Part shown: one piece after another, positions 22,907 through 41,255 of the stretch
Position numbering within the stretch: the first letter of the stretch is position 1
Layout: each line of letters begins with the position of its first letter
Assembly: GCA_943788815.1 (NCBI GenBank)
Contig: CALSRS010000001.1
Coordinates: 1,735,501 to 1,799,500 of the forward strand
DNA length: 64,000 nt
Direction of reading: 5' to 3'
Source of the DNA: an uncultured Gammaproteobacteria bacterium
Lineage (GTDB): Bacteria; Pseudomonadota; Gammaproteobacteria; Eutrophobiales; Eutrophobiaceae
Program-made: the position numbers and the translations under genes
Notes under the pieces: model-generated
Databases searched by the model: none
What the model saw: only the letters and a program-made list of their open reading frames with translations
Told to the model about the DNA's origin: nothing

Positions 22907-23632
22907 TCACATTCTGAACTGGTTACCCAAATAGATGTCTCTAACGTGATCATTTGCAAGGATCTGGTCTGGCGAGCCTTCCGCAATAATGTGACCATCA
23001 TTAACGATATAGGCTCTATCGCAAGATCCAAGTGTTTCTCTTACATTATGGTCAGTAATTAAAATGCCCAGGCCTCTTTTGCTCAAGTAGCCAATTATTC
23101 TTTGTATGTCTGTTATTGAAATTGGATCTATTCCTGCAAATGGCTCGTCAAGCAACAGGAATTCGGGATCGACAGCAAGTGCGCGTGCGATTTCAACCCT
23201 TCTACGTTCCCCTCCAGACAGACTTTGTCCAAGACTGTTTCTCAAATGTGCGACATGAAATTCCTGGAGTAAGGCCTCAAGTTGATTGTTTGATTCTTCG
23301 CGGGAGAGATTTTTTCTAGTTTCAAGTATAGCCATTATATTATCTTCAACAGTCAGTTTTCTGAAAATTGATGATTCCTGCGGAAGGTATCCAATGCCCA
23401 TTCTGGCGCGCCTGTCCATCGCCAGATTGCTAATGTCGCGATCATTAATCAATATTTTTCCGCTATCTGAAGGTATTAATCCAACGACCATATGAAAACT
23501 GGTAGTCTTCCCTGCTCCATTTGGACCCAGCAGGCCGACAATTTCGCCAGTATTAACGGTCAAGCTTACGTCTTTAACAACTTGCCGCTTGCGGTATTTT
23601 TTTGAGAGATTCTGTACTGAAAGAAGGCTCAT
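22907..23632 (-). CDS. lptB: LPS export ABC transporter ATP-binding protein LptB
   Basis: LptB is the ATPase of the LptB2FG complex that extracts LPS from the inner membrane. The 241 residues include Walker [10 protein letters not shown], the signature [15 protein letters not shown], Walker [13 protein letters not shown] and the H-loop ITDHNVRE. It lies between lptA and rpoN as in most gammaproteobacteria. An LptF/LptG pair is present at 32.4-34.5 kb in this same window. Confidence 0.97.
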
Positions 23633-23660
23633 GAATATGGTATATAAAGTAAATAGATAA

Positions 23661-24209
23661 CTATTCGACCTTTTGGGGCTCTTCCTTCTTCCCTGGTATA
23701 ATTAATCGAACACGGTCATCTTGCTGAGCACTATCGTCAGCCTGACTTCCTTTTGCTCTAACTTGACTCAATTCCGTGTCATATTCTATATGTTCTGCTA
23801 ATAGTCTCCTGTCCCCCTGCATAACTTTTGCCTGGTTGGAAAGTATTATCATGCTGTCGTTTTCATGATATTCCATTATTAATGCTTCTGCTTCGTCATA
23901 CACTGAACTATTGTCCGGAAGTTGGCGGAATGTAGCAGGTTGCCCACTGATAATAATTTTATTCAGTTCATTTTCATCTGTGTAATACACTGTTAATTTA
24001 TCTCCGGTGATTCTTATGCTTCCCTGCAGGACTATAACGTTACCAGTGTAAATCCCATGATTTTTTGTGTCATCGAGATAGACAGAGTTTGATTCAATTT
24101 CGATGTCTTGATTTTTATCGGTAGAAAGCGCAGCTGCATCAGCTAGATATACGCATACCAGTATCAATATACTAAATTGTATCGGGATCTGTAATAATTG
24201 TTTTTTCAT
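23661..24209 (-). CDS. lptA: LPS transport periplasmic protein LptA
   Basis: LptA forms the periplasmic bridge that carries LPS from LptC to LptD. The 182-residue protein has an N-terminal signal peptide (about 1-26, ending ADAAA) and OstA-fold beta strands ([21 protein letters not shown] in shortened view; [14 protein letters not shown]). A charged C-terminal tail follows. It overlaps the lptC 3' end by 38 bases, an extensive overlap suggesting translational coupling. Confidence 0.92.
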
Positions 24210-24741
24210 GTTTTAATATTTCCAGGCGGCTATCTTCAAAATGGGCGCGAATTCCCTTGCCGGTTATGGTCATATGCTTGCCTGTTATTGTCGCATTTTG
24301 GTCCGTCTCTGCATACTCCTCATGGACCAATATTTTTACATCCCAGGTATCAACGCTAAGCGTAATGATTCCATCATGGTTTTCTTCCCACATACGAACT
24401 TTGCCTTGCAGGAATATTTCGTCATTGTCATCAGTTGCGCGTCCTTCATCTGCGGTAATATATAATGGATCATTGTTTGTTCTGAAGATCTCCAGTTTTG
24501 GATTTTGAAGATACAAGGTATCATCCGCCGGATTGTGCTCCATGTAAGATGCAAATAATGTATTTAAGGGAAGGCCGTCTTCCCCTATCGTAATAGTTGA
24601 AAAATCTTCCATATAATAATCTGGATCCTGGGCAGTATTAGACATTACCGATGATGGCGTGCCAGTAATCCTGTCCATTAACCATCCGCTGCTTAAGGCA
24701 GCCAGGGCCAAAATAATAATTAAAATTAATCTACCAGACAT
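24172..24741 (-). CDS. lptC: LPS export protein LptC
   Basis: LptC is a bitopic inner-membrane protein that receives LPS from LptB2FG. The 189 residues have a single N-terminal membrane helix (about 4-21) and the OstA-like periplasmic fold with YMEDFSTITIGEDGLPLNTL and LYITADEGRATDDNDEIFLQG. Sequence is less conserved in this family, so the call rests on the fold features and the kdsC-lptC-lptA-lptB order. Confidence 0.92.
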   Translation of the reverse strand: MSGRLILIIILALAALSSGWLMDRITGTPSSVMSNTAQDPDYYMEDFSTITIGEDGLPLNTLFASYMEHNPADDTLYLQNPKLEIFRTNNDPLYITADEGRATDDNDEIFLQGKVRMWEENHDGIITLSVDTWDVKILVHEEYAETDQNATITGKHMTITGKGIRAHFEDSRLEILKHEKTIITDPDTI

Positions 24742-27259: not shown

Positions 27260-27392
27260 TTTATTTTATTTTTTTTCCTAAAATAAGCTGAAATACAGTT
27301 TGTATATCAACTATAGAGTTATTTGGTAATGTCATTATGCAAGACTGAGCATGTCATCAGTCTATGGTAATTTATCTATTTGGGGAACCGAT

Positions 27393-28055
27393 GTGAAGGC
27401 AATGATACTGGCGGCAGGTAAAGGTGAGCGTATGATGCCGCTAACAAAATCTACACCCAAGCCGCTTTTGAAAGCTGGCAATAAAGCACTTATCGAATAC
27501 CATATTGAAGCGCTGGTTCATGCAGGCATTACTGATATCGTTATCAATACTGCTAAATTTGGAGAACAGATAGAAACCGCCCTTGGGGATGGAGCACATT
27601 GGCGCGCTCGGATTCTATACTCCCATGAAGGAGTAAGCCCAAAAGGGACGGGGGGGGGTGTTCAGCTTGCCTTGCCTCTGTTGGGAAAAGCGCCTTTTTT
27701 TCTGATTAACGGAGATGTTTGGACTGACTACGATTTTAGCAAACTAAATAAGCCAGCTGAAAAACTGGCACACCTTATTATGGTAGAAAACCCAAATCAT
27801 AATCAGGGAGGTGATTTCGGTTTGTCTGGCGGCCAGGTGGTGCTAGATGACGGCAATAAGCTTACATACAGCGGCATAGGAATTTTTAATCCAGAATTTT
27901 TTTCCAGCGAGACGCAGACCATGTTTTCATTTGTCCCAAGCTTACAAACAGCAATAAAAAGGGGTCTTGTCTCCGGGGAGAAGAATAAGGGACTGTGGTT
28001 TGATATAGGGACGCCGCAACGCCTTGAAAAATTAGACATTTTATTAAAAAAGTGA
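27393..28055 (+). CDS. murU: N-acetylmuramate alpha-1-phosphate uridylyltransferase MurU
   Basis: MurU makes UDP-MurNAc from MurNAc-1-phosphate in the peptidoglycan-recycling route known from Pseudomonas, which bypasses fosfomycin-sensitive synthesis. The 220 residues begin MKAMILAAGKGERM, with KPLLKAGNKALIEYHIEAL, GTGGGVQLALP and INGDVWTDYDF, closely matching MurU. GTG 27393 is chosen for its TGGGGA ribosome binding site and length; an upstream ATG at 27351 lacks one. A G9 tract at 27650-27658 is in frame (TGGG). The usual partner kinase gene amgK is not adjacent. Confidence 0.9.
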   Translation: MKAMILAAGKGERMMPLTKSTPKPLLKAGNKALIEYHIEALVHAGITDIVINTAKFGEQIETALGDGAHWRARILYSHEGVSPKGTGGGVQLALPLLGKAPFFLINGDVWTDYDFSKLNKPAEKLAHLIMVENPNHNQGGDFGLSGGQVVLDDGNKLTYSGIGIFNPEFFSSETQTMFSFVPSLQTAIKRGLVSGEKNKGLWFDIGTPQRLEKLDILLKK

Positions 28056-30401: not shown

Positions 30402-31373
30402 TTACCTTATAGCGCCTCGACGCAATAGTTGCCAGAGCACCTTGAAACCCAACAGTATTGGAAATTTTTTCAACGCAGGGGTAATTTCTATTTCAATTCC
30501 AGAATGCCTGTTTATCTTCCAGGCTGCATATTCAACACAATCATGAAAGGTGAGCACCGCCTTCATTAGCCTAAGTATAGAGAGTATTTTTCCCTGCCAG
30601 CGTCTAGCTAGCCACCTGTGGCGATAGTTGTTTTTTTGTTTGGAATTACAAGAGAATAAATACGTATTTGTTTTGCTTGTGGGTTTTAAACAGTCGAATG
30701 CAGGTAGTGCGAGGTCAATAAGTTTGGATAAGTCATTTAGTGATTGTTTGACTATTTCGTTACATCGTCCGCTACGTTCCGGCCTAAGCTCAGCAGAATA
30801 TGAAAGCTCAAGAGCATTTGTCCAAATTTTTTCACTAGTTACCTCACCTTCGTGCAATAGAGGAAGCGATTCTTTAATGTAACGAATAACTGAGTTAGTC
30901 AGACATTGATAAAACCCTCTTCTTAAATTGTCGTTCTTGGCATAAATTAATCTAACTGGCTGAGCAAATCTTGCCCATACATATGGGTGGAACCATTTGT
31001 TGGTTGCTTTGTAAAAGTCTTCCATTGAAATGACAGCATATTTAGCCCTTAAGGTTTCATTGCCAGTATTAGATTCAATATAAAATACATTAGGAGGTAG
31101 TGCTTTGTTTAATAGCGCAAAAAAAGGACTGTTGTAGGCTTCATGATAATTATCAACAATTACATAAAAATCTAGAATGCCTTCCGTAAAGTTATTGCTT
31201 CTAAGACAAGACCCATAAAGTACTATCAGATCAATTTTGTCTTTGAATACTAATTGCAACTGCTTTGTTAGCGGCGATAAGTCCTGGCCAACTTTTCTTT
31301 CAGAGTGATTCTTTAGCTCAGTAGTTAGAGCGTCTGTTTGATTATGTGTTTCGATATTTTTCAATGGGGGCAA
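30402..31373 (-). CDS. Tam41-like phosphatidate cytidylyltransferase-family protein
   Basis: The 323-residue protein has a nucleotidyltransferase loop LIVLYGSCLRSN followed by an LDFYVIVD acidic strand. It also has KYAVISMEDF and a W-x5-YVWARFAQPVRLIYAK stretch. The YGS...DF and KY-VIS-ED...GR-x-KPV pattern is what I recall of Tam41/MMP37, the mitochondrial-type CDP-diacylglycerol synthase. A basic C-terminal region might bind membranes. The TTG start lies 13 bases after the lipid kinase gene, so the two are cotranscribed. I infer it activates a phospholipid with CTP, possibly ceramide-1-phosphate given its neighbours; this is unproven. Confidence 0.6.
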   Translation of the reverse strand: MPPLKNIETHNQTDALTTELKNHSERKVGQDLSPLTKQLQLVFKDKIDLIVLYGSCLRSNNFTEGILDFYVIVDNYHEAYNSPFFALLNKALPPNVFYIESNTGNETLRAKYAVISMEDFYKATNKWFHPYVWARFAQPVRLIYAKNDNLRRGFYQCLTNSVIRYIKESLPLLHEGEVTSEKIWTNALELSYSAELRPERSGRCNEIVKQSLNDLSKLIDLALPAFDCLKPTSKTNTYLFSCNSKQKNNYRHRWLARRWQGKILSILRLMKAVLTFHDCVEYAAWKINRHSGIEIEITPALKKFPILLGFKVLWQLLRRGAIR

Positions 31374-31386
31374 TATTTATTTATCT

Positions 31387-32322
31387 TTAAGGAACTATAA
31401 ATGTGACAGGTTCAGTTGTAGATAAATTTAATTGAATATTATGATTTTCTGAATTAAATATTTCGCCGTCAATAATATAACTGCTATTTAATCGCATTGA
31501 AATTTTATGGTTATTGAAACTGTTATATCCGTCTGATTCATTTAAATAGTGACCACGATTAAAAATAATGCTTATAAGGGATCGCCATAATCTATTTGCT
31601 TGTGCCTTAATAAAAGTGACATGTATCGGTTTTTTTGTATTCCCCCAATATGGCCTTAGACCATATAAAAGGCGATCAAGAGTGGTTGCAAAAAATACAA
31701 GCGTGCACATGGGTTTCTTTTTGACTCCATCGGTCTCTATTTCCAGCATAGCTTGCCCCAGTTTATTGCTTTCAGGCGCTAACAATAATTTGAAAATAAA
31801 AGGAACAATCGCCGCGATAGAAATTATCTCTCCTGTTAGTCCTGATTTTTTTATATGCTTGTTGAAGTATTTGACGCCGCTGGCAATAATACCAGCGCCG
31901 AAAAAGAAACCATACATGGCGGGTTTGTCCTGAAGTTCGATTTTTAGCAAAGGTTTATTAATATGCTTGGTCTGCAAGTTGCCAGCAAAGATATTCTTTG
32001 TTTTTTTAAGATTAACCTCAAACCCTTTGATGCCAATATCAGATGCCGTCATGTTTGTGGTGCCGCCAGGCAATATGAGTATATTAGGTATCTTGTCCCC
32101 TTTTGAGATACTTATATAATAACTTAGAGCGGACTGCACCGTTCCGTCCCCGGCAATAATTATGAGATTAGTGATTTTTTGTAAGTAAAAGGAATCCAGT
32201 ATAGGAATAAATTCTTCGGGACATGTAGCTTCGGCTACAATCACTCCTGGAATGTCAGAAATAATTTTTCTGACATGGTGAATTTTCTTTTTAACTTTCC
32301 CGCTGGCAGGGTTTAATAACAA
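31387..32322 (-). CDS. diacylglycerol kinase-fold lipid kinase, candidate ceramide kinase
   Basis: This is a DAGKc-fold protein: NPASGKVKKKI at the start, the glycine-rich IIIAGDGTVQSALSY nucleotide loop and ILPGGTTNMTASDIGI, the family's GGT-N motif. Its C-terminal domain is the beta-rich half of this fold. In Caulobacter a DAGK-family protein in the sphingolipid locus is a ceramide kinase, so that role is inferred here. The TTG at 32322 leaves the first beta strand too short; the frame is open upstream to 32376, and ATT at 32349 has AAGGA 9 bases before it (see findings). It directly follows lptG. Confidence 0.8.
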   Translation of the reverse strand: MLLNPASGKVKKKIHHVRKIISDIPGVIVAEATCPEEFIPILDSFYLQKITNLIIIAGDGTVQSALSYYISISKGDKIPNILILPGGTTNMTASDIGIKGFEVNLKKTKNIFAGNLQTKHINKPLLKIELQDKPAMYGFFFGAGIIASGVKYFNKHIKKSGLTGEIISIAAIVPFIFKLLLAPESNKLGQAMLEIETDGVKKKPMCTLVFFATTLDRLLYGLRPYWGNTKKPIHVTFIKAQANRLWRSLISIIFNRGHYLNESDGYNSFNNHKISMRLNSSYIIDGEIFNSENHNIQLNLSTTEPVTFIVP

Positions 32323-32371
32323 TCCAGTTTTTTGAGCTTGGGCAGTAATATCTGTAATTCCTTGTGAAATA

Positions 32372-33436
32372 TCAATTTACCCTGCCAAGCCAGAACCTTG
32401 CGGCCCAGATAAGCATGGTTCCCGGTGCCAGTGCGATTAGTAATGGATTTAAATCCAACAGCAGTCCAGCGTTTGAGAATATTTGACCCATCAGATAGAC
32501 CACAATTCCAGTAACGCCGGCCATAACTAATCTGTTTGCAAATCCAGTTCTTACTGATCCAATGACAAATGGCACTGATAATAGGAGCATGCCAAGCATC
32601 GTGAGTATTTCTCCAGGCTTCCTCCATAGTGATAGCTCATATACATCAGATTCTTGCCCTGTGTTATCCAGGTATTTTATATAGTTGTACAACTCTATTG
32701 GCGAGAGACTTTCAGGTTGTTTTGTCAAAGTTGAAATCTGATCAGGTTCTAGAAAGGTTTCCCAGCCCATGCTGTTGGTTCGAGATGAAATAATTTCCCC
32801 ATCCAAAATCAGTTTGCTTGTAACGTTGTAAAGCGTCCATTCATCATCGCTTACGATCTCAAAGCCTTCTGCAGAAATATATTCTGATACTGACCCATCT
32901 TCATCCAGATTTATAATTTCAACCCCTGCTGTTGTTGTGTCATGTTGCAGATTTGCAATTCGAATTATGTGTTGATTGTTCCTTGACCAGATCCCAAGAT
33001 CGCTACCAGCGATAGTGCTTTGGTCAAGCGCGGCCGCACGAAATGCAATTGCGCGTTGCTGCAATGTTGGCGCTATTACAAATTCCAGCGCAATGATGAA
33101 TAGCACCATTAAGAAGCCAACCTTAAGAGAAGCAGAGCTGATGTTCACAGGAGAAAATCCAGCACTACGTAATGAGATTAATTCATGATGAATTGCCAGC
33201 CTGCCAAGTGCTGTCACATTTCCCATTAAGGCAATAAAGGGAGCAAGCTGTATGAATCTACGCGGAATGGTTAACAGGACATAAATGAATGCGTCCTCAG
33301 TCTGATAAAACCCGGTACCTACATCATCCAGTTGCTCAACCAGGTCCAGAAAGCTAAACAATGGTATTAATACCAGAGTAGAAACGATAACCCCCAAAGA
33401 AATCTGTTTCATTAAATATTGATCAAGAATTTTCAT
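32372..33436 (-). CDS. lptG: LptG-family permease
   Basis: This 354-residue YjgP/YjgQ-family inner-membrane protein has three N-terminal and three C-terminal helices around a periplasmic beta-jellyroll. PRRFIQLAPFIALMGNVTALGRLA and HHELISLRSAGFSP are the family's coupling-helix region. SLSPIELYNYIKYL and LSLWRKPGEILTMLGMLLLSVPFVIG are typical of LptG. It overlaps lptF by 4 bases (ATGA). It may be the cell's LPS-exporting LptG, or a copy devoted to sphingolipid, because it lies inside the ceramide locus. Confidence 0.88.
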   Translation of the reverse strand: MKILDQYLMKQISLGVIVSTLVLIPLFSFLDLVEQLDDVGTGFYQTEDAFIYVLLTIPRRFIQLAPFIALMGNVTALGRLAIHHELISLRSAGFSPVNISSASLKVGFLMVLFIIALEFVIAPTLQQRAIAFRAAALDQSTIAGSDLGIWSRNNQHIIRIANLQHDTTTAGVEIINLDEDGSVSEYISAEGFEIVSDDEWTLYNVTSKLILDGEIISSRTNSMGWETFLEPDQISTLTKQPESLSPIELYNYIKYLDNTGQESDVYELSLWRKPGEILTMLGMLLLSVPFVIGSVRTGFANRLVMAGVTGIVVYLMGQIFSNAGLLLDLNPLLIALAPGTMLIWAARFWLGRVN

Positions 33437-34506
33437 CTGGATTGAAGAGACTTTTGAATTTTAGGCGTAAATATAAACAAAACTGCAATCAGCATCAGCA
33501 GATGCAACCACCATACCCCCGGCATTTTTCCAACCAGCCCTTGTTCGACCCAGGTTTGCGCCAGCCCATTTAAATTATAATAAATAGCAAATATTACAGC
33601 AGCTGAAATGATTTTTTCGCTTTTGCCTTGCCTAGGCGAGGATCTTGCCAATGGAATTGCCACCATAGCTAACAGAATGGCAGAAAATGCACGGGAGATT
33701 CTCCATTGGAATTCAGCAATATCTCTGGAATCGTCAGAAAAACTTAACTCCAGAGTCGAGGCAGCTTTTCTTTGATAATCTCTGGCAGTTTCAGTGTTGG
33801 GCATGTAAACAAACCTGGAAAACTTAATTATGGAGTCCCTGGTAGAATTACGATCCATTCTGTACATATACCCATCAAGCAGGTGTAGCTTGGGTGGCGA
33901 ATAATCTTCCGCAGGCTCCTGATAGCCATTTTTGGCGATGATGATGTCACTGGAATTATCTTTGTTTAGGTAATGAAATACGCCCTCAAGCTCTCCTTCA
34001 TCGTTATCTCTTTTATTCTCTATATAAATGATGCTGTCACTTTCTTCGTTACCATAAAAGCGTCTTGCCTGATATCTGGATACGTCCATTTGTGAGCTTG
34101 CGCTTTCATCCATTTGATAGATCATTTCATACGCCCAGGGCCTGCCAAAAATTGATAATATGCCAACCAAAATTCCTATGGGAATGCATAAATTAAGAAC
34201 GGTTTTAACTATGAAGTTTTCACTAATGCCAGCAGATCTTAAAACAATAACTTCCTGGTCTCTGTGCAGCCTTCCTAGCGCAACAATAATAGCCGCATAC
34301 AAGGCAATTGGGAAAAGCACCTCCATTGCAATGATAGTTTTTAATATGATTAACTTTGTGATCAGCGCCATTCCAAGCGTTTCTGTAACTGTTTCTGCTA
34401 GATAGCGGGCGGCATTAAAACTGGTAAACAGACCAGCGAGAATAAAACTCACCACGAGAAAGGGCTTGAGCACTTCACTGGTTATATAAATATTTAATCT
34501 GTTCAT
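33433..34506 (-). CDS. lptF: LptF-family permease
   Basis: This 357-residue YjgP/YjgQ protein is the partner of LptG. Family features are EVLFPIALYAAIIVALGRLHRDQEVIVLRSAG in the coupling region, a periplasmic beta domain (about 130-270) and the C-terminal WRISRAFSAILLAMVAIPLARSSPRQGK. The N-terminal half diverges from well-studied LptF. It follows the bCerS-like gene by 43 bases on the same strand. In many gammaproteobacteria lptFG adjoin pepA; that gene is not seen here. Confidence 0.87.
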   Translation of the reverse strand: MNRLNIYITSEVLKPFLVVSFILAGLFTSFNAARYLAETVTETLGMALITKLIILKTIIAMEVLFPIALYAAIIVALGRLHRDQEVIVLRSAGISENFIVKTVLNLCIPIGILVGILSIFGRPWAYEMIYQMDESASSQMDVSRYQARRFYGNEESDSIIYIENKRDNDEGELEGVFHYLNKDNSSDIIIAKNGYQEPAEDYSPPKLHLLDGYMYRMDRNSTRDSIIKFSRFVYMPNTETARDYQRKAASTLELSFSDDSRDIAEFQWRISRAFSAILLAMVAIPLARSSPRQGKSEKIISAAVIFAIYYNLNGLAQTWVEQGLVGKMPGVWWLHLLMLIAVLFIFTPKIQKSLQSR

Positions 34507-34549
34507 TAGTTAAATTAGTTAACAGAAAATGATAATTTGAAATAGAGAG

Positions 34550-35728
34550 TTACAGAATATTTTTTTCATAAATTCTGTAACGTTTATAAATATGAGCAGA
34601 CATGCTTTTCAGCATGCTTCGCATGCCCTTGTTATTATCCAGTATCCAGGACATTTCAACTCCTTCAATTCCAGATCCAACCACAGGAACACGGGCCGCT
34701 GCACACATCATATATGCCATTGCCAGGCCAATAGGACTGTTATGATATTTTTTTCTCACTCCCATTAATGCGATGCGTCCTGTTTTTATTTTATTGAGTC
34801 TGATTGAGCGCAACATTTTTATCCAGCCAAAGGGGAATAGTTTTCCATTTAGTTCTGATAATACTTCGTTTAGATTTGGAAGTATTACAACAAATGCCAC
34901 AGGCTTATTGTCAATCTCGGTAATTTGTATGTAGCCATCAGGTACAAATGGTTTCAGGGCTGCACCAAGCTCTGCAAACTCTTCCTTGCTGAAAGGAATA
35001 TATCCCCAATTGTTTGACCAGGCATCATTAAAGATGTCTCGCATTATTTCCAGGTCTGATTTGAAAGATTTTTTATTCAAGGGTCTGATGTGTATTTTGT
35101 TAGTATATTGTTTTACCAACTTGGCCATCACCCGATTTTCTCCAAAATCCTTTGAATCAATCCAGTAAGCCAGGAGATCTATTGCTTGACGATATCCTTG
35201 ATCTTCTATGCATTGCCCATACCACGGGCGTGAATGGGGCATCAAAATACTGGGTGGTGTATTAAATCCTTCGACAAGAACCCCGCACTCCTGGTTAATG
35301 GAAAAATTAAATGGCCCTGTAACATAGGAAATGCCTTTTTGTTTTAACCAGGCTTCACCTGTGGCAAACAATGCTTCAAATACTGCCGGGTCATTTTCTG
35401 CCTCCATGAAGCCAAAGTGGCCAGAGTGCTTACCAAAATGTTGTTGGTGAACCTTATCAATCTGGGCAGTGATTCTTCCTACAGGTTTGTCATTACGATA
35501 CGCTAACCACGCTTGCCAAGTGGCATTTTTGAAATATGAGTTAAATGATGAGAAGTGCATGCGTCTTTCAAGTTTAAGGGGCGGAACCCAGTTTTCATCA
35601 TCTGCGTATATTTTCCAGGGGAGCGCTATAAACTCCCTAAGATCTCGTCCAGATGATACTGCAGTCACACGGATTGGGGATGTACTTGAATTATAGATAT
35701 TTGTCGTCACCATGTTGGGCATTAGCAT
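34550..35728 (-). CDS. GNAT-fold acyltransferase, candidate bacterial ceramide synthase (bCerS)
   Basis: This 392-residue protein opens, after a short variable start, with LREFIALPWKIYADDENWVPPL, followed by a GNAT-like core (WQAWLAYRNDKPVGRITAQID; GHFGFMEAENDPAVFEALFATGE). A second half has GYIQITEIDNKPVAFVVILPNLNE. The architecture and length resemble the Caulobacter ceramide synthase bCerS as I remember it, an acyl-CoA N-acyltransferase unrelated to eukaryotic CerS. The neighbours on both sides fit sphingolipid synthesis. It would N-acylate the SPT product. The family identity comes from memory and context. Confidence 0.72.
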   Translation of the reverse strand: MLMPNMVTTNIYNSSTSPIRVTAVSSGRDLREFIALPWKIYADDENWVPPLKLERRMHFSSFNSYFKNATWQAWLAYRNDKPVGRITAQIDKVHQQHFGKHSGHFGFMEAENDPAVFEALFATGEAWLKQKGISYVTGPFNFSINQECGVLVEGFNTPPSILMPHSRPWYGQCIEDQGYRQAIDLLAYWIDSKDFGENRVMAKLVKQYTNKIHIRPLNKKSFKSDLEIMRDIFNDAWSNNWGYIPFSKEEFAELGAALKPFVPDGYIQITEIDNKPVAFVVILPNLNEVLSELNGKLFPFGWIKMLRSIRLNKIKTGRIALMGVRKKYHNSPIGLAMAYMMCAAARVPVVGSGIEGVEMSWILDNNKGMRSMLKSMSAHIYKRYRIYEKNIL

Positions 35729-36092
35729 AAAATATGGGCTAAGGATAGCATATAACTATCTGACATTACCTATAAAAAACAATGAATTACGTCAACATGG
35801 GATTGAATGGTTTTGTTGCTGTAAACTGTCCTTGGACTGCAATTTTTTATATTGGACAGCAAAACGAAGTGAATAGATATGTAATGTAACGAGAAAAGAT
35901 AGCGAATAATGCTGGCATGAATACCATGTAATACTTTAAACTTCGCGTCTTTATTTTGTGCCAGCATATCGATCCCAGGTTCTCGTATCAGTATTCCGGG
36001 TTATATTTCGGGCCAATTAGTGCTAGCATACGACATAAATTTCTTTTATATTATCAGCGGGATAGAACACATTTGTACGAGGAGCATGAACT
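35729..36092. promoter_or_regulatory. divergent intergenic region of the ceramide locus
   Basis: This 364-base AT-rich spacer separates the two arms of the lipid cluster and should hold both promoters. A 9-bp inverted repeat, ATGCTGGCA at 35909-35917 and TGCCAGCAT at 35959-35967, is separated by 41 bases. TATTAT at 36049-36054 could be a -10 element for the plus arm, but I find no convincing -35. GAGGAG at 36079-36084 is a strong ribosome binding site. No gene or RNA was recognised. Confidence 0.45.
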
Positions 36093-37922
36093 CTGATCTC
36101 TAAAATAAGCAAATTAAATGCAGCCGAAACTCAAGAAAGTGGCGATCAGCATACTGATAAAGAGCGGGTTGAATTAATACCAACAGTTACGCGTAATAGT
36201 CAGCCAAAACGTCTGGGCGATTTTGATACCTTAACTGATGCGTTGGAATATGCTGCTACAGGTTCAACTGGTTATAACTTTTATGATGCCAGGGGTAACC
36301 TTATATCTGTGCTAAGTTATGCAAGGTTGATGCATGACGCCCAAAAAACAGCAAAGTGTTTAATGGGGCTTGGACTTAAGCGCGGAGACAATGTGGCTAT
36401 TATCGCTGATACAACTCCTGAGTTTATAACCTTGTTCTTTGCATGCAGGTATGCAGGCGTTGTTCCATTTGCAATGCCAGTCCCTGTAAATCTTGGCAGC
36501 CACGATATTTACGTAAAGCAATTGCGCGGAATGATGTCTGTCAGTAAAGCGACTGCCGCAATAGCCAACAAAGAATACATCTCATTTCTTGAAGAAGCGG
36601 TAGAAGGTCTAGGCACTATTCGTTGGGCTGGCACATTAGAAGGTTTGATGGAGATGCCAGAATCAGATCAAAAGATTATCAGAAATCAACAGGAAGATGT
36701 TGCATACCTACAGTTTACATCTGGAAGCACCAGAGCACCTCAGGGTGTTATCGTGACAGAAAAAGCGGTAATGAGTAATCTGCGGGGGATCGTCAGGGAT
36801 GGCCTGAGGATGTATGAGGATGACAGGTGCGCTTCGTGGTTACCGTTTTATCATGATATGGGATTAATCGGCCTGGTGTTGTCACCTTTGGTCTCACAAA
36901 TGTCTGTAGACTTTTTAAGGACAAGAGATTTTGCTGTTAGGCCAATACAGTGGTTACGATTGATTAGCAAAAATAAATGTACGATTGCGTTTTGTCCGCC
37001 ATTTGGTCTTGAGTTATGTGCCATGAGAGTTAGAGCAGCAGATCTTGAGGATCTTGATTTAAGCAGTTGGCGGGCTGCAGGAATTGGGGCAGAAATGATA
37101 AACCCCCAAATTCTGGAGGCCTTTGCGGAAAGATTCAAATCAGTAGGATTCAATGCCAAGGCATTCCTTCCCTGTTATGGTCTGGCTGAAGCTTCTCTGG
37201 CTGTATCATTCTCTGAAGTTGGTCATGGTCTTGAGGTAATGAATGTTGATACCGAGGTGCTAGCAGACAAAGGTGTTGCAGTACGTGTGGAGTCCGACTC
37301 CAAAAAGAGTAATATTTTCGTAAATTGTGGCAAAGCATTGCCTGAGCACGATGTCATCGTGGTAGATGATAATGGAGATAGTCTGCCGGACCTTAGGGTT
37401 GGCAGGGTATTATTAAAAGGCCCCAGCATTATGTCAGGATATATAAATGACGCAGAAGCAACACAACGCGTCATGAAATCCGGTGGTTGGATGGATACCG
37501 GTGATCTGGGATATCTTTCCGAAGGGAATATATATTTAACCGGCAGACACAAGGACATTATTATTATTAATGGCCGAAATATTCGTGCGCAGGATATCGA
37601 GGAAATAGCAGAGCAGCAGCCGGAAATCAGAACCAGAGAAACGTCAGCTTTTTCAGTCAATGACAGCAATGGAAAGTCTACAGTAGTGCTGGTTATAGAA
37701 AACAGACTATCATCCGTTGAAGAGCGTCAGGCACTAATCAGTCGTGTTCAACGTCTGGTATATAATGCATTTGGCGTAAAATGCTTTGTTGAGTTAGTTT
37801 CACCGCATACACTCCCAAGAACTTCATCAGGCAAACTTTCACGAGCAGCTGCTTGCAAAGGGTTTCTTGAAAGAACAGGTTTTTCAAACCCTCAGTCAGC
37901 CCAGGCCGACTCATACCACTAA
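36093..37922 (+). CDS. fatty acyl-AMP ligase (acyl-ACP synthetase) of the ceramide cluster
   Basis: This ANL-superfamily ligase activates a fatty acid as acyl-AMP, probably for loading onto the adjacent ACP. YLQFTSGSTRAPQGVIV is the AMP/phosphate loop. LPCYGLAEASLAVSFS, WMDTGDLGYL, TGRHKDIIIINGRNI and the C-terminal lysine in TSSGKLSRAAACKGF complete the set. Homologous sequence (GDFDTLTDALEYAATG) extends upstream of TTG 36243, and the frame is open back to 36090. GAGGAG lies 8 bases before CTG 36093, which I take as the likeliest, though unusual, start (609 residues); TTG 36243 gives 559. cerR follows after 3 bases. Confidence 0.85.
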   Translation: MISKISKLNAAETQESGDQHTDKERVELIPTVTRNSQPKRLGDFDTLTDALEYAATGSTGYNFYDARGNLISVLSYARLMHDAQKTAKCLMGLGLKRGDNVAIIADTTPEFITLFFACRYAGVVPFAMPVPVNLGSHDIYVKQLRGMMSVSKATAAIANKEYISFLEEAVEGLGTIRWAGTLEGLMEMPESDQKIIRNQQEDVAYLQFTSGSTRAPQGVIVTEKAVMSNLRGIVRDGLRMYEDDRCASWLPFYHDMGLIGLVLSPLVSQMSVDFLRTRDFAVRPIQWLRLISKNKCTIAFCPPFGLELCAMRVRAADLEDLDLSSWRAAGIGAEMINPQILEAFAERFKSVGFNAKAFLPCYGLAEASLAVSFSEVGHGLEVMNVDTEVLADKGVAVRVESDSKKSNIFVNCGKALPEHDVIVVDDNGDSLPDLRVGRVLLKGPSIMSGYINDAEATQRVMKSGGWMDTGDLGYLSEGNIYLTGRHKDIIIINGRNIRAQDIEEIAEQQPEIRTRETSAFSVNDSNGKSTVVLVIENRLSSVEERQALISRVQRLVYNAFGVKCFVELVSPHTLPRTSSGKLSRAAACKGFLERTGFSNPQSAQADSYH

Positions 37923-37925
37923 TTC

Positions 37926-38849
37926 ATGTCTGATGTAGTCGCAGTTACAGGTGCGACCGGATTCATCGGCCGCCACCTCCTTGACTCGCTTACGCATAAA
38001 AACTTTAAAATTAAGGCGCTCACCAGGAAGCCCCAAACAACTATTGGCTCTATAGACTGGATTACAGGAGACCTGTTAAACACGGATAGCCTGGAGGAGC
38101 TCGTCAGAGATGCTGATATTATTATTCATTGTGCAGGACAGGTTCGGGGAAATAATTACCAGGGCTTCGAAAAAACCAATGTGGTAGGTACCGAAAATTT
38201 AATTCAAGCAATTGAAAAGCAAAATCAATCTCCTCGATTTCTCATGATATCTTCTCTTGCTGCTAGAGAGCCTCATTTGTCCTGGTATGCTAAAAGTAAA
38301 TACCAGTCAGAGCAGGTCTTAGTCAAATCACGCGGTAAGTTTAAGTGGTCTATCCTGCGCCCTACAGCGGTCTATGGTCCAGGTGATAAGGAGCTAATGC
38401 CATTGTTAAAGGCAACAACAAAGGGACTGCTGCCAATGATAAATACGCCAGAGTCCAAGTTTGGCTTGATATATGTAGATGATCTGATTTTAGCGATAAA
38501 TAATTGGATCGAATCAAAAAGTGCAGATGGAAAGATATATGAACTTGATGATGGATCACCTGGGGGATATGATCAATTTAAACTAAAAGAGATCGCCAGT
38601 CAGGTTTGGGGAAAGAAAGTAAGAATTATTCCGATTCCGGTAATGTTGGTTAAAGTTATCGCAAATATTAATTTACATTTGTCTCGTATATTAGATTATT
38701 TGCCAATGTTAACACCGGAAAAAGTTCGTGAATTGACCCACCATGACTGGGTATCTACAAATAGTCATTTCACCGATGATACTGGTTGGCTACCAAAAAC
38801 ATTGTTGAAGGATGGCCTTGAAAAGGCAATACTGTCCGATAGACATTAA
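37926..38849 (+). CDS. NAD-dependent epimerase/reductase, CerR-like
   Basis: This extended short-chain dehydrogenase has 307 residues. TGATGFIGRHL is the NAD(P)-binding GxxGxxG (G9, G12, G15), and the catalytic Tyr121 and Lys125 are in WYAKSKYQSEQ. In the Caulobacter sphingolipid locus a gene of this family (cerR) reduces the 3-oxo-ceramide intermediate, and it has the same neighbours as here. I infer the same role. It starts 3 bases after the ligase stop and is followed by the ACP gene after 14 bases. Confidence 0.85.
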   Translation: MSDVVAVTGATGFIGRHLLDSLTHKNFKIKALTRKPQTTIGSIDWITGDLLNTDSLEELVRDADIIIHCAGQVRGNNYQGFEKTNVVGTENLIQAIEKQNQSPRFLMISSLAAREPHLSWYAKSKYQSEQVLVKSRGKFKWSILRPTAVYGPGDKELMPLLKATTKGLLPMINTPESKFGLIYVDDLILAINNWIESKSADGKIYELDDGSPGGYDQFKLKEIASQVWGKKVRIIPIPVMLVKVIANINLHLSRILDYLPMLTPEKVRELTHHDWVSTNSHFTDDTGWLPKTLLKDGLEKAILSDRH

Positions 38850-38863
38850 AGCAGAATAAAATT

Positions 38864-39112
38864 ATGCGAGATCGAGAAGAAGTTACAAATAAGGTGAGTC
38901 AATTTTTAGAACAGATTGCAGGGCCTGATATACAAATTACACCAGAGACAAACATTGCTGAAGAATTAGCGTTGGACTCTGTCAAAGTTCTAGATCTACT
39001 AATGGAGCTCGAGGATGAATTTGATGTATCCGTGCCATTAAATTTAATGGCTGATGTGCAAACAGTAAATGATCTTGTAAACCTCATAGAAAAAACAATT
39101 ACAGATAACTAA
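38864..39112 (+). CDS. acyl carrier protein of the ceramide cluster
   Basis: This 82-residue acidic four-helix ACP has the phosphopantetheine serine at Ser39 in ELALDSVKVLDLLMELEDEF. The usual ACP motif is DSL; DSV here marks a specialised carrier. It sits between cerR and the SPT-like gene and overlaps the latter by one base (TAATG), so it is probably the dedicated acyl donor for SPT, charged by the adjacent ligase. Confidence 0.92.
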   Translation: MRDREEVTNKVSQFLEQIAGPDIQITPETNIAEELALDSVKVLDLLMELEDEFDVSVPLNLMADVQTVNDLVNLIEKTITDN

Positions 39113-40293
39113 TGCCTTTGCTAGACAAATTTTCTTCCTTTCTTGAAGAAAGAAAACAACTACTCTCCGTCAAGCCGGATATATTCGGCACAAAAATAGA
39201 AAAAATGTATTCAGCTACTGAAGCAAGTATAGACGGGCATAAAGTTCTCCTGGCTGGTACGAATAATTATCTTGGCTTAACCTTTAACAAGGAGTGCCTG
39301 GATGCTGCTCATAAGGCAATTGATGAAGAAGGTACGGGAACCACTGGCTCAAGGATGGCAAACGGTAATTATAGTTCTCACCGAGAATTAGAAAAAGACC
39401 TTGCAGATCTTTATCATTGTAATCACTGTATTGTATTTTCTACAGGTTATCAGGCAAATCTTGGCACAATATCTGGTCTTGCAGGAACAGGAGATGTTCT
39501 ATTAATCGATGCTCATTGTCATGCAAGCATCTATGATGGTTGCAAATTAAGTGGCGCTGAAATAATACGTTTTCGACATAATGACCCTGATGACCTTAGC
39601 AAGCGGTTAAATCGTCTTGGTGATAGAGCTAAGTCTTCGCTAGTTATTGTCGAGGGGATATATAGCATGCTTGGTGACACTGCTCCATTAAAGGAGTTTG
39701 TTGAGTGTAAAAAGCAGCACAATAGTTATTTAATGATAGATGAGGCACATTCTCTTGGTGTGCTTGGAGATACAGGGCAAGGACTTGTTGAAGTCGCTGA
39801 TGTTGGTAAAGATGTTGATTTTATAACTGGAACTTTTAGTAAAAGCCTTGGTAGCATAGGTGGGTATTGTGCCAGCAATCATTCTCAGTTAGATGCCATC
39901 CGTTACATGAGTCGGCCATATATATTTACCGCATCTCCGTCCCCGTCTAATATCGCTTCTGCACGTGCTGCTTTAGTATTACTTAAAGAAGGAAAGCATT
40001 TACGCGAGAACCTGTGGAAACAGTCAAACAGACTATATGCTCATTTACAAAATCTGGGATTTAAGCTGGGTCCGGAACCTGGGCCAGTAATAGCTGCACA
40101 GCTTGAAACGCCAGAAGAAGCTCTTCATATCTGGACGACACTGTTAAAAAAAGGACTATATGTAAACCTGATATTTCCTCCGGCGTCTCCGCAGAATATG
40201 CCACTATTAAGAATCAGTATTAGTGCAGCGCATGATGACAAACAAATGGACTTTATCTGTAATGTTTTTACAGAGCTGATGAACGAAAAGTAA
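39112..40293 (+). CDS. serine palmitoyltransferase-like alpha-oxoamine synthase
   Basis: This PLP-dependent fold-type I enzyme of the alpha-oxoamine synthase family (393 residues) condenses an acyl thioester with an amino acid. Key elements are GTGTTGSRMANGNY, DAHCHASIYDG, the MIDEAHSLGVLG motif (Asp210, His213) and the PLP lysine Lys244 in TGTFSKSLGSIGG. KBL and BioF share this fold, but the ACP, FAAL and CerR-like neighbours favour sphingoid base synthesis from serine. It converges on the UPF0104 gene with a 2-base gap. Confidence 0.88.
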   Translation: MPLLDKFSSFLEERKQLLSVKPDIFGTKIEKMYSATEASIDGHKVLLAGTNNYLGLTFNKECLDAAHKAIDEEGTGTTGSRMANGNYSSHRELEKDLADLYHCNHCIVFSTGYQANLGTISGLAGTGDVLLIDAHCHASIYDGCKLSGAEIIRFRHNDPDDLSKRLNRLGDRAKSSLVIVEGIYSMLGDTAPLKEFVECKKQHNSYLMIDEAHSLGVLGDTGQGLVEVADVGKDVDFITGTFSKSLGSIGGYCASNHSQLDAIRYMSRPYIFTASPSPSNIASARAALVLLKEGKHLRENLWKQSNRLYAHLQNLGFKLGPEPGPVIAAQLETPEEALHIWTTLLKKGLYVNLIFPPASPQNMPLLRISISAAHDDKQMDFICNVFTELMNEK

Positions 40294-40295
40294 TC

Positions 40296-41255
40296 TCAAT
40301 CAGTATTTTGTCTGGAATAATAAAGTTTGCTCAGTAAGTAAAAAACCAATCCGATAAGCGCATATATCACCATTCTTGCCCGACGTATTAATCCAAAAAC
40401 AACACCCAGAGCGGCTGAATACCCAGTGATACTTAAGGCTGTAGCTATACCTGCTTCGTTGACACCAAGACCATTTGGGATAAAGAAAAAAATGCTGACA
40501 CTGGCCATTATCATCCCTTCAACCAGCACGGTGTCTGTAAATTTTGGAGTGACATCCAGAATTATAAATATCAAATAAAGTTCAAGAAATTTTCCACATC
40601 GACCTAGTAATCTGTATGAGGTGCCGTGTAGCAATTTCTTCCAGCTTAATTTGTCATAAGCTATATCTTCTATTAATTTAAATTTAGACAAGATTAGGCC
40701 GGAAAACCTCGATGGTGCACGAGACATCGTAAGCCAAACAAGGAGTATGGCTACAATTATCATAGATATCAAAACACACCATAACCCTAAACGTAATCCT
40801 GGAATTGAATTTAAACTAAAATAATACAAACATGCACCGATAACCATTGCGGTGTAAATAACACCTGATAGAGCATGCAACAATCGACTCTGTATGATTG
40901 CACGACTAGAGTCAGTAATAGGTACAAATCTGGATAGATATTTGGCTTTATATGGCTCTCCTCCCATACCTACCAGTGGTGTGATGCTGTTAAAAGCATC
41001 GCCACTAATCTGGGTAAAAAGTGCCTGTTTAAAAGTTATTGTATTTTCTAGCAAGACACGCAAGGTCATTGAATAAGGGATAACCCAGATCATTGGAAAG
41101 ACTACTAGCCATAGTGCTTCAATTCCTATAGTACTAATAACTTCAAGCAAATCGTTGAAGGGGAGTCTCGCAACGAGATAAACGATTATAGAAATGCCTA
41201 ATACATAAAAAAAGAAGGTTGCTGCCTTACGCGGTTGAATATAATTATTAGCCAT
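40296..41255 (-). CDS. UPF0104/lysylphosphatidylglycerol synthase-type membrane protein
   Basis: This 319-residue polytopic membrane protein has about eight hydrophobic segments. A TPLVGMGGEPYKAKYLSR segment and a late FFIPNGLGVNEAGIATALSI mark the UPF0104 (LPG_synthase_TM) family, which includes the flippase half of MprF. No soluble aminoacyltransferase domain is present. The position at the end of the ceramide cluster suggests a lipid-handling or lipid-flipping role, but it lies on the other strand, 20 bases from queC, and may be unrelated. Confidence 0.8.
   Translation of the reverse strand: MANNYIQPRKAATFFFYVLGISIIVYLVARLPFNDLLEVISTIGIEALWLVVFPMIWVIPYSMTLRVLLENTITFKQALFTQISGDAFNSITPLVGMGGEPYKAKYLSRFVPITDSSRAIIQSRLLHALSGVIYTAMVIGACLYYFSLNSIPGLRLGLWCVLISMIIVAILLVWLTMSRAPSRFSGLILSKFKLIEDIAYDKLSWKKLLHGTSYRLLGRCGKFLELYLIFIILDVTPKFTDTVLVEGMIMASVSIFFFIPNGLGVNEAGIATALSITGYSAALGVVFGLIRRARMVIYALIGLVFYLLSKLYYSRQNTD

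Follow-up and report, generated by a model that had tools for sequence, protein, structure and literature searches.

Introduction

The closest described system is the CC_1152–CC_1168 region of Caulobacter crescentus, which holds five ceramide genes, a CpgB-like lipid kinase, a CDP-diacylglycerol (CDP-DAG)-synthase-like protein and a second LptFG pair (PMC11324152). The second pair, LptF2/LptG2, has been given a proposed but untested role in sphingolipid transport, and the route of bacterial sphingolipids to the outer membrane was stated in 2024 to be unknown (PMC11324152). Here we analyze a locus of this kind in a 64,000-nucleotide stretch, the window, from an uncultured gammaproteobacterium of the family Eutrophobiaceae (GenBank assembly GCA_943788815.1, contig CALSRS010000001.1, positions 1,735,501–1,799,500). 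We think it likely that the locus makes ceramide and from it a phosphorylated outer-membrane sphingolipid, which LptF2G2 would extract into an Lpt bridge shared with lipopolysaccharide (LPS).

Similar loci are already published, gammaproteobacteria included. The five ceramide genes are clustered in Escherichia coli BL21, whose YghO is listed as an N-acyltransferase (PMC9386255). Azotobacter vinelandii and Pseudomonas luteola carry contiguous clusters in which at least 13 of the 17 Caulobacter genes are reported to have good orthologues, which the authors read as a possible transfer from an alphaproteobacterium (PMC11324152). What is new in our case is that the LptFG lineage is a separate one, that the cluster is reduced and that a head-group satellite lies unlinked to it. 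The literature passages and sections examined mention neither a double origin of LptF2/G2 nor a fusion of a nucleotidyltransferase (NTase) with a HAD phosphatase.

Results

A five-gene ceramide set on two divergent arms

The genome from which the window comes measures 3.23 Mb on three contigs. An earlier reading of the letters alone (the sequence-only reading) had proposed a ceramide synthesis gene set on two divergent arms, and this was borne out: the arms span 30402–40293, every gene it named lies at the coordinates and on the strand that it gave, and the family matches in Pfam and NCBIfam profile searches are far above chance. The plus arm runs from an AasR-like fatty acyl-AMP/acyl carrier protein (ACP) ligase (36093–37922; PRK09192, 830 bits, cut-off 600) through a CerR-like short-chain dehydrogenase/reductase (37926–38849; Epimerase/3Beta_HSD) and an AcpR-like ACP with an LDSVK stretch (38864–39112; PP-binding, 46 bits) to a serine palmitoyltransferase (SPT; 39112–40293; NF047599, 600.8 bits, cut-off 500), with spacings of 3 bases, 14 bases and a 1-base overlap. 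The minus arm begins with a bCerS-like tandem-GNAT N-acyltransferase (34550–35728), followed by LptF2 (33433–34506; TIGR04407, 317 bits, cut-off 230), LptG2 (32372–33436; TIGR04408, 288 bits, cut-off 240), a CpgB/CC_1160-like lipid kinase that is a candidate ceramide kinase (31387–32322; DAGK_cat, 42 bits) and a CpgC/CC_1161-like nucleotidyltransferase of the Tam41 fold (30402–31373; Pfam Tam41_Mmp37, 35 bits, cut-off 24), at spacings of 43 bases, a 4-base overlap, 49 bases and 13 bases.

The sequence-only reading had named an SPT-like protein grouping with BioF or KBL, and a GNAT protein outside the bCerS family, as outcomes that would refute it; neither outcome was seen. In a tree of 108 sequences, from which L035, L131, L132 and matches shorter than 300 residues were omitted, 95 SPTs are split with 100% local support from 13 alpha-oxoamine synthases of other kinds, which include two encoded in the window's own genome. 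The GNAT protein has no match in Pfam or NCBIfam, and PDB sequence searches with it and with the kinase returned nothing useful. Nevertheless, its AlphaFold model (pLDDT 87) matches tandem-GNAT acyltransferases (7q3a, E 8e-14) and the protein is 48% identical to BL21 YghO, which makes it a bCerS homologue, as had been predicted. Relatives of it occur in 57 of the 100 stretches searched; its alignment (A3) comprises 18 sequences.

The other plus-arm proteins resemble their BL21 counterparts to a similar degree (AasR 47%, CerR 42% and ACP 40% identity; 40–53% over all five ceramide proteins). The ACP matches 15 NCBIfam models, in each case below the cut-off; its gene ends at the first base of spt, with aasR two genes ahead. 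Judged by sequence, then, the plus arm together with the GNAT gene makes up the known set of five ceramide genes: its SPT belongs to the SPT clade, acpR immediately precedes spt with aasR near, and bCerS and CerR both have homologues. The core of the earlier proposal holds because of the clade placement of SPT, the fold and YghO identity of the GNAT protein, and the BL21 identities of AasR, CerR and ACP.

A second LptF/LptG pair is inherited with SPT

The genome encodes two LptF/LptG pairs, and the spt-linked one (32372–34506) had not been flagged as a second pair in the sequence-only reading. The other adjoins genes that by eye resemble pepA and holC, which we take to be the E. coli arrangement. 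There is a single LptC match and a single LptD match in the genome. The LptC match falls in window positions 22907–24741, alongside genes recognized by eye as LptB- and LptA-like; the distance to the sphingolipid cluster is about 6 kb.

We then followed the LptF/LptG family (PF03739) across 37 genomes of the family, 17 with SPT (G012 with a fragment only) and 20 without. All 20 SPT-negative genomes have exactly two matches each; among the 17 SPT-positive genomes, 14 have four, one has five (including a fragment), one three and one two. An extra LptFG match is therefore present in 16/17 SPT-positive and 0/20 SPT-negative genomes, the extra match in G029 being a contig-end fragment. In the exception, G009, the contig starts 1 kb before AasR, so that the minus arm may have been lost in assembly. 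SPT status changes four times on the tree of LPS-type LptFG pairs (34 of the 37 genomes) and its partners follow, implying that the co-inheritance of SPT, LptFG and the Tam41-like gene reflects few independent events. Because SPT presence requires only these four changes, we rejected the Fisher p values, of about 1e-9, as independent evidence.

From the 79 named loci, 26 genomes with SPT were searched: 24 carry four or more PF03739 matches, and the remaining two carry two each. Complete LptF and LptG genes share a stretch with SPT in 58 of the 79 loci; in E. coli BL21, too, they lie beside SPT.

LPS contacts are changed and coupling residues are kept

LptG K34 of Shigella and E. coli touches the 1'-phosphate of LPS; a K34E change is lethal, unlike K34A (PMC6744409). 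The window's LptG2 has an aspartate (D31) at this site, and its LptF2 has a glutamine in the position of K322 of E. coli LptF, which contacts the inner core; the LPS-contact residues of LptF2G2 are unlike those of the genome's other pair. The same holds more widely: the K34 site is acidic in 15/20 gamma-type sphingolipid pairs vs 0/44 gamma LPS-type pairs, and the K322 site lacks lysine or arginine in all 20 of the former (glutamine in 18), whereas 38/44 of the latter have one or the other. In these counts, and in that of the coupling glutamates below, L129 and L193 were set aside as "other" and L186 was counted as sphingolipid-linked. The glutamates LptF E84 and LptG E88, which matter for cooperation with LptB (PMC5082905), are kept in 20/20 gamma-type sphingolipid pairs, including that of the window.

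Two lineages of sphingolipid-linked LptFG

In trees, the sphingolipid-linked LptF+LptG pairs fall into two groups. One stands beside alphaproteobacterial LPS-type pairs and contains Caulobacteraceae, Azospirillum, Acetobacter and also Nevskiaceae; the other lies among gammaproteobacterial pairs and contains the window's family, Thiohalobacter and E. coli BL21. A single sphingolipid LptFG clade was rejected, with log-likelihoods 88 and 95 lower and approximately unbiased (AU) test p values of 3.9e-4 and 8.5e-6, in chosen subsets of 52 and 53 rows under LG+G4; the grouping was tested after earlier trees had suggested two groups. Long branches and uneven composition were flagged in these trees, and the larger one retained 108 of 132 rows after near copies and long branches were omitted. 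L186 and L193, first labeled canonical, fell among the sphingolipid-linked pairs in the 108-row tree; L186 was relabeled afterwards, and the AU tests contained neither.

By these trees, the window's LptFG does not appear to share a common descent with alphaproteobacterial LptF2/G2. The two lineages and the rejection of a common clade suggest that the sphingolipid exporter was probably recruited twice, here independently of the exporter of Caulobacter relatives. The SPT tree fits this picture, since 15 of 16 family SPTs form one clade (99%) outside a 72-row alpha clade (99%) that includes Nevskiaceae. Nine loci pair an alpha-type SPT with a gamma-type LptFG (L043, L045, L047, L053, L055, L061, L065, L069 and L079): seven have alphaproteobacterial labels, one is labeled "Proteobacteria" and one is a Geothrix (Acidobacteriota) metagenome-assembled genome. 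These mixed loci imply that exchange or transfer of the exporter module has occurred as well.

Candidate head-group genes and an unlinked satellite

The kinase is homologous along its length to 13 proteins encoded in other SPT loci, at 19–38% identity. Its model matches 12/17 SPT-positive family genomes, with one weak match among the 20 SPT-negative ones. The Tam41-like gene is found in 16/17 and 0/20, respectively. Its AlphaFold model (pLDDT 91) has Tam41 CDP-DAG synthases as all of its top five PDB matches (best E 4e-11), and the protein shares with them the fold and, in the nucleotidyltransferase region, the invariant YGS and an aspartate (D68); identity in the five structural matches is 14–18%. 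The fold, YGS and D68 of the modeled protein point to a CDP-DAG-synthase-like counterpart of CpgC.

In Caulobacter, CpgB is a ceramide kinase (PMC10331486), and genetics shows that CC_1160 and CC_1161 are needed for ceramide phosphoglycerate (CPG) (PMC11324152). CC_1161, which we infer to be CpgC (CCNA_01219) from gene order and names in PMC12275187, carries a CDP-DAG-synthase domain; the idea that it produces NDP-ceramide is that of the PMC11324152 authors, from their reading of this protein.

These relatives of CC_1160 and CC_1161 favor CPG as the product. However, CpgD- and CpgA-like genes were not recognized in the cluster (elsewhere in the genome, only a CC_1153-like protein was searched for). 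In the window's own genome, the NTP transferase that adjoins bCerS in other loci has a single relative (29% identity). This relative lies about 545 kb from the cluster (L138:4330–7087; contig C1, about 1.218–1.221 Mb), and this CC_1153-like protein is fused to a HAD phosphatase. The arrangement hints, at most, at nucleotidyl transfer and phosphate removal being successive steps. The full-length fusion occurs in four members of the genus (G000 to G003). Its NTP-transferase part is present in 16/17 SPT-positive and 0/20 SPT-negative family genomes, the matches in the latter covering the HAD part only. The adjoining protein has no Pfam match; its family profile finds a TagF-like capsule polymerase at E 2e-4, a weak match over about 70 residues, and TarL at 0.07. 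This TagF-like gene is present in 10/17 SPT-positive and 0/20 SPT-negative genomes. A phosphorylated ceramide other than CPG, its head group extended, for instance, by a teichoic-acid-like transferase encoded off the cluster, is therefore a serious contender, which we rate somewhat below an even chance.

We also observed an OlsC/LpxO-like hydroxylase (PF05118) that falls short of the NCBIfam cut-offs for OlsC and LpxO. In the window's own genome it lies on contig C2 at about 400 kb (L139:5346–6116); in the relatives L120, L123, L126 and L127 it adjoins the Tam41-like gene and is thus linked to the cluster. It is a candidate ceramide acyl 2-hydroxylase.

Comparison with the Caulobacter and E. 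coli clusters

The sequence-only reading had matched the gene content to that of Caulobacter. This stands for the five ceramide genes, the kinase, the CDP-DAG-synthase-like protein and the second LptFG, all common to the window and CC_1152–CC_1168, but not for the remainder: nothing like CC_1152 (CpgD), CC_1153, CC_1158, LptC2 or the Wzx-like flippase was seen in the cluster, and nothing like CC_1159 (CpgA) was recognized there. Moreover, neither the window's LptF2/G2 nor its SPT falls in the groups to which the Caulobacteraceae loci belong. Its SPT also lies outside the alpha clade, in contrast to the alphaproteobacterial transfer envisaged for A. vinelandii and P. luteola, which are known here by their published description.

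The yghO-aasR-cerR-acpR-spt block of E. coli BL21 has the plus-arm order and divergent bCerS of the window, and its LptFG belongs to the same lineage (100% support). LptG-LptF lie beyond spt in BL21 and behind bCerS in the window, and the kinase and Tam41 models, both matched in the window, have zero matches among the 13 proteins tested from the BL21 block. The BL21 stretch from yghO to lptF (L204:9283–17067; bCerS, AasR, CerR, ACP, SPT, LptG and LptF) is at least 80% covered in 4014 of 5426 complete E. coli genomes, a figure of coverage that says nothing on the intactness of the block. To our knowledge, E. coli K-12 lacks most of it. The view that sphingolipids are not typical of gammaproteobacteria, voiced in the sequence-only reading, is contradicted by this distribution and by the published gammaproteobacterial clusters.

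Gene starts, composition and neighboring genes

Several gene starts are odd. The first in-frame ATG, GTG or TTG of the AasR reading frame is a TTG at 36243, although the conserved N terminus begins earlier; the codon at 36093 is a CTG. In the divergent intergenic region (35729–36092), an AGGAG is followed by an ATG at 36086 that is out of frame with AasR and reaches a stop after five codons. The kinase (32322) and Tam41-like (31373; TTG start) genes have no ATG start, that of the kinase being uncertain. Non-standard starts, a frameshift or an assembly error are alternative explanations for the three genes. Promoter-like matches in 35729–36092, and the promoter and terminator scans, showed no excess over shuffled sequence, and a tRNA was the only match in an Rfam search. 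At 40.0%, the G+C content of the cluster is lower than that of the remaining window (42.8%) and slightly under that of every sampled stretch of the same size.

The neighboring gene at 27351–28055 encodes MurU (273 bits, cut-off 250), and passing this model led us to reject it as CpgD. Convergent with spt lies a gene for an LPG_synthase_TM/HpnL-like membrane protein (40296–41255, minus strand; Pfam, 77 bits). Among the stretches searched it is full-length only in the window and G002, and a decayed copy occupies the same place and orientation in L126 (8793–9248); we rejected it as a core part and regard it as accessory at most. Within one family, the slot after SPT holds differing candidate lipid flippases (L115–L119, L122, L124, L127, L128 and the window), typed by a Pfam run on one member each: Polysacc_synt (Wzx-like) in four loci, an ABC transporter in five and the HpnL-like protein in the window and G002. 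None of the three types is intact after SPT in L114, L120, L121, L123 and L126. A small gene family, c5, occurs in 15 stretches and in several adjoins AasR or LptF (for example L114:13833–14294); one member scores 22.6 bits against the HIT domain model (cut-off 21.5). Finally, the Nitrospirillum viridazoti locus L053 has two ACP-SPT pairs inside 21 kb.

Discussion

Gene families, phylogeny, co-inheritance and fold are what we observe, and from them we infer each reaction, the head group and the transport step in the following scheme. AasR would load a fatty acid onto the dedicated ACP, and SPT would condense the ACP-bound acyl group with serine. The GNAT protein would attach the second acyl chain and CerR would reduce the keto group. 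The lipid kinase may then form ceramide 1-phosphate, which the Tam41-fold protein could convert with CTP to CDP-ceramide, ready for a head group; the simplest candidate is phosphoglycerate, giving a Caulobacter-like CPG. LptF2/LptG2 would extract the finished lipid from the inner membrane, powered by LptB, and feed it into the LptC-LptA-LptD bridge shared with LPS.

Several observations weigh against this scheme. Both LptF2 and LptG2 exceed the cut-offs of the NCBI equivalog models for LPS exporters. An acidic residue at the LptG K34 site is also found in 7/11 alpha LPS-type pairs; we therefore rejected the idea that it specifically marks sphingolipid as the substrate, and it denotes a changed site only. 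The co-inheritance evidence amounts to about four evolutionary events. The kinase reads AGDGT where 13 relatives have GGDGT, the start of its gene is unclear, and five SPT-positive family genomes have no match to its model. The exporter does not need the kinase or the Tam41-like protein, as the BL21 block has LptFG and no match to either model. Finally, the comparison with Caulobacter used Caulobacteraceae loci, and the CC equivalences come from gene order and domains rather than from C. crescentus sequences.

The first two of these points, together with the retained coupling glutamates, would suit a redundant or regulated LPS exporter that sits by chance in a cluster whose ceramide function is as we describe. 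We consider this improbable: an extra LptFG match accompanies SPT in the family, LptF and LptG share a stretch with SPT in most named loci and lie beside it in BL21, and the LPS contacts of the window's second pair differ from those of the genome's other pair. An alpha-oxoamine synthase other than SPT, making another amino-ketone lipid (a sulfonolipid base or an autoinducer) or acting as BioF or KBL, is very improbable indeed, because although the fold family is shared and there is a 166-bit match to the structure of a cysteate acyltransferase, the best PDB match is an SPT (2x8u, 397 bits) with KBL and BioF structures at 198 bits or below, the NF047599 SPT equivalog model is passed while those of BioF, KBL and ALA synthase are not, and the SPT clade and the partner genes of the ceramide set agree.

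Sphingolipid export by LptF2G2 thus remains our preferred reading. A broader proposal, which we hold tentatively and place just short of an even chance, is that such export evolved at least twice, from alpha and from gamma LPS extractors, through duplication of LptF/LptG and changed LPS contacts with docking to LptB and LptC-A-D kept, and that in this genus the lipid may be extended by the NTase-HAD and TagF-like proteins to carry a teichoic-acid-like head group.

If this is true, LPS and sphingolipid would travel by one road with two loaders. A second LptFG that travels with SPT and appears to have had two origins, in a genome with a single LptC and a single LptD, would offer a testable answer to the question of sphingolipid export: two extractors and one bridge. 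Because the BL21 block contains LptFG of the window's lineage, this idea could be tested in a laboratory strain.

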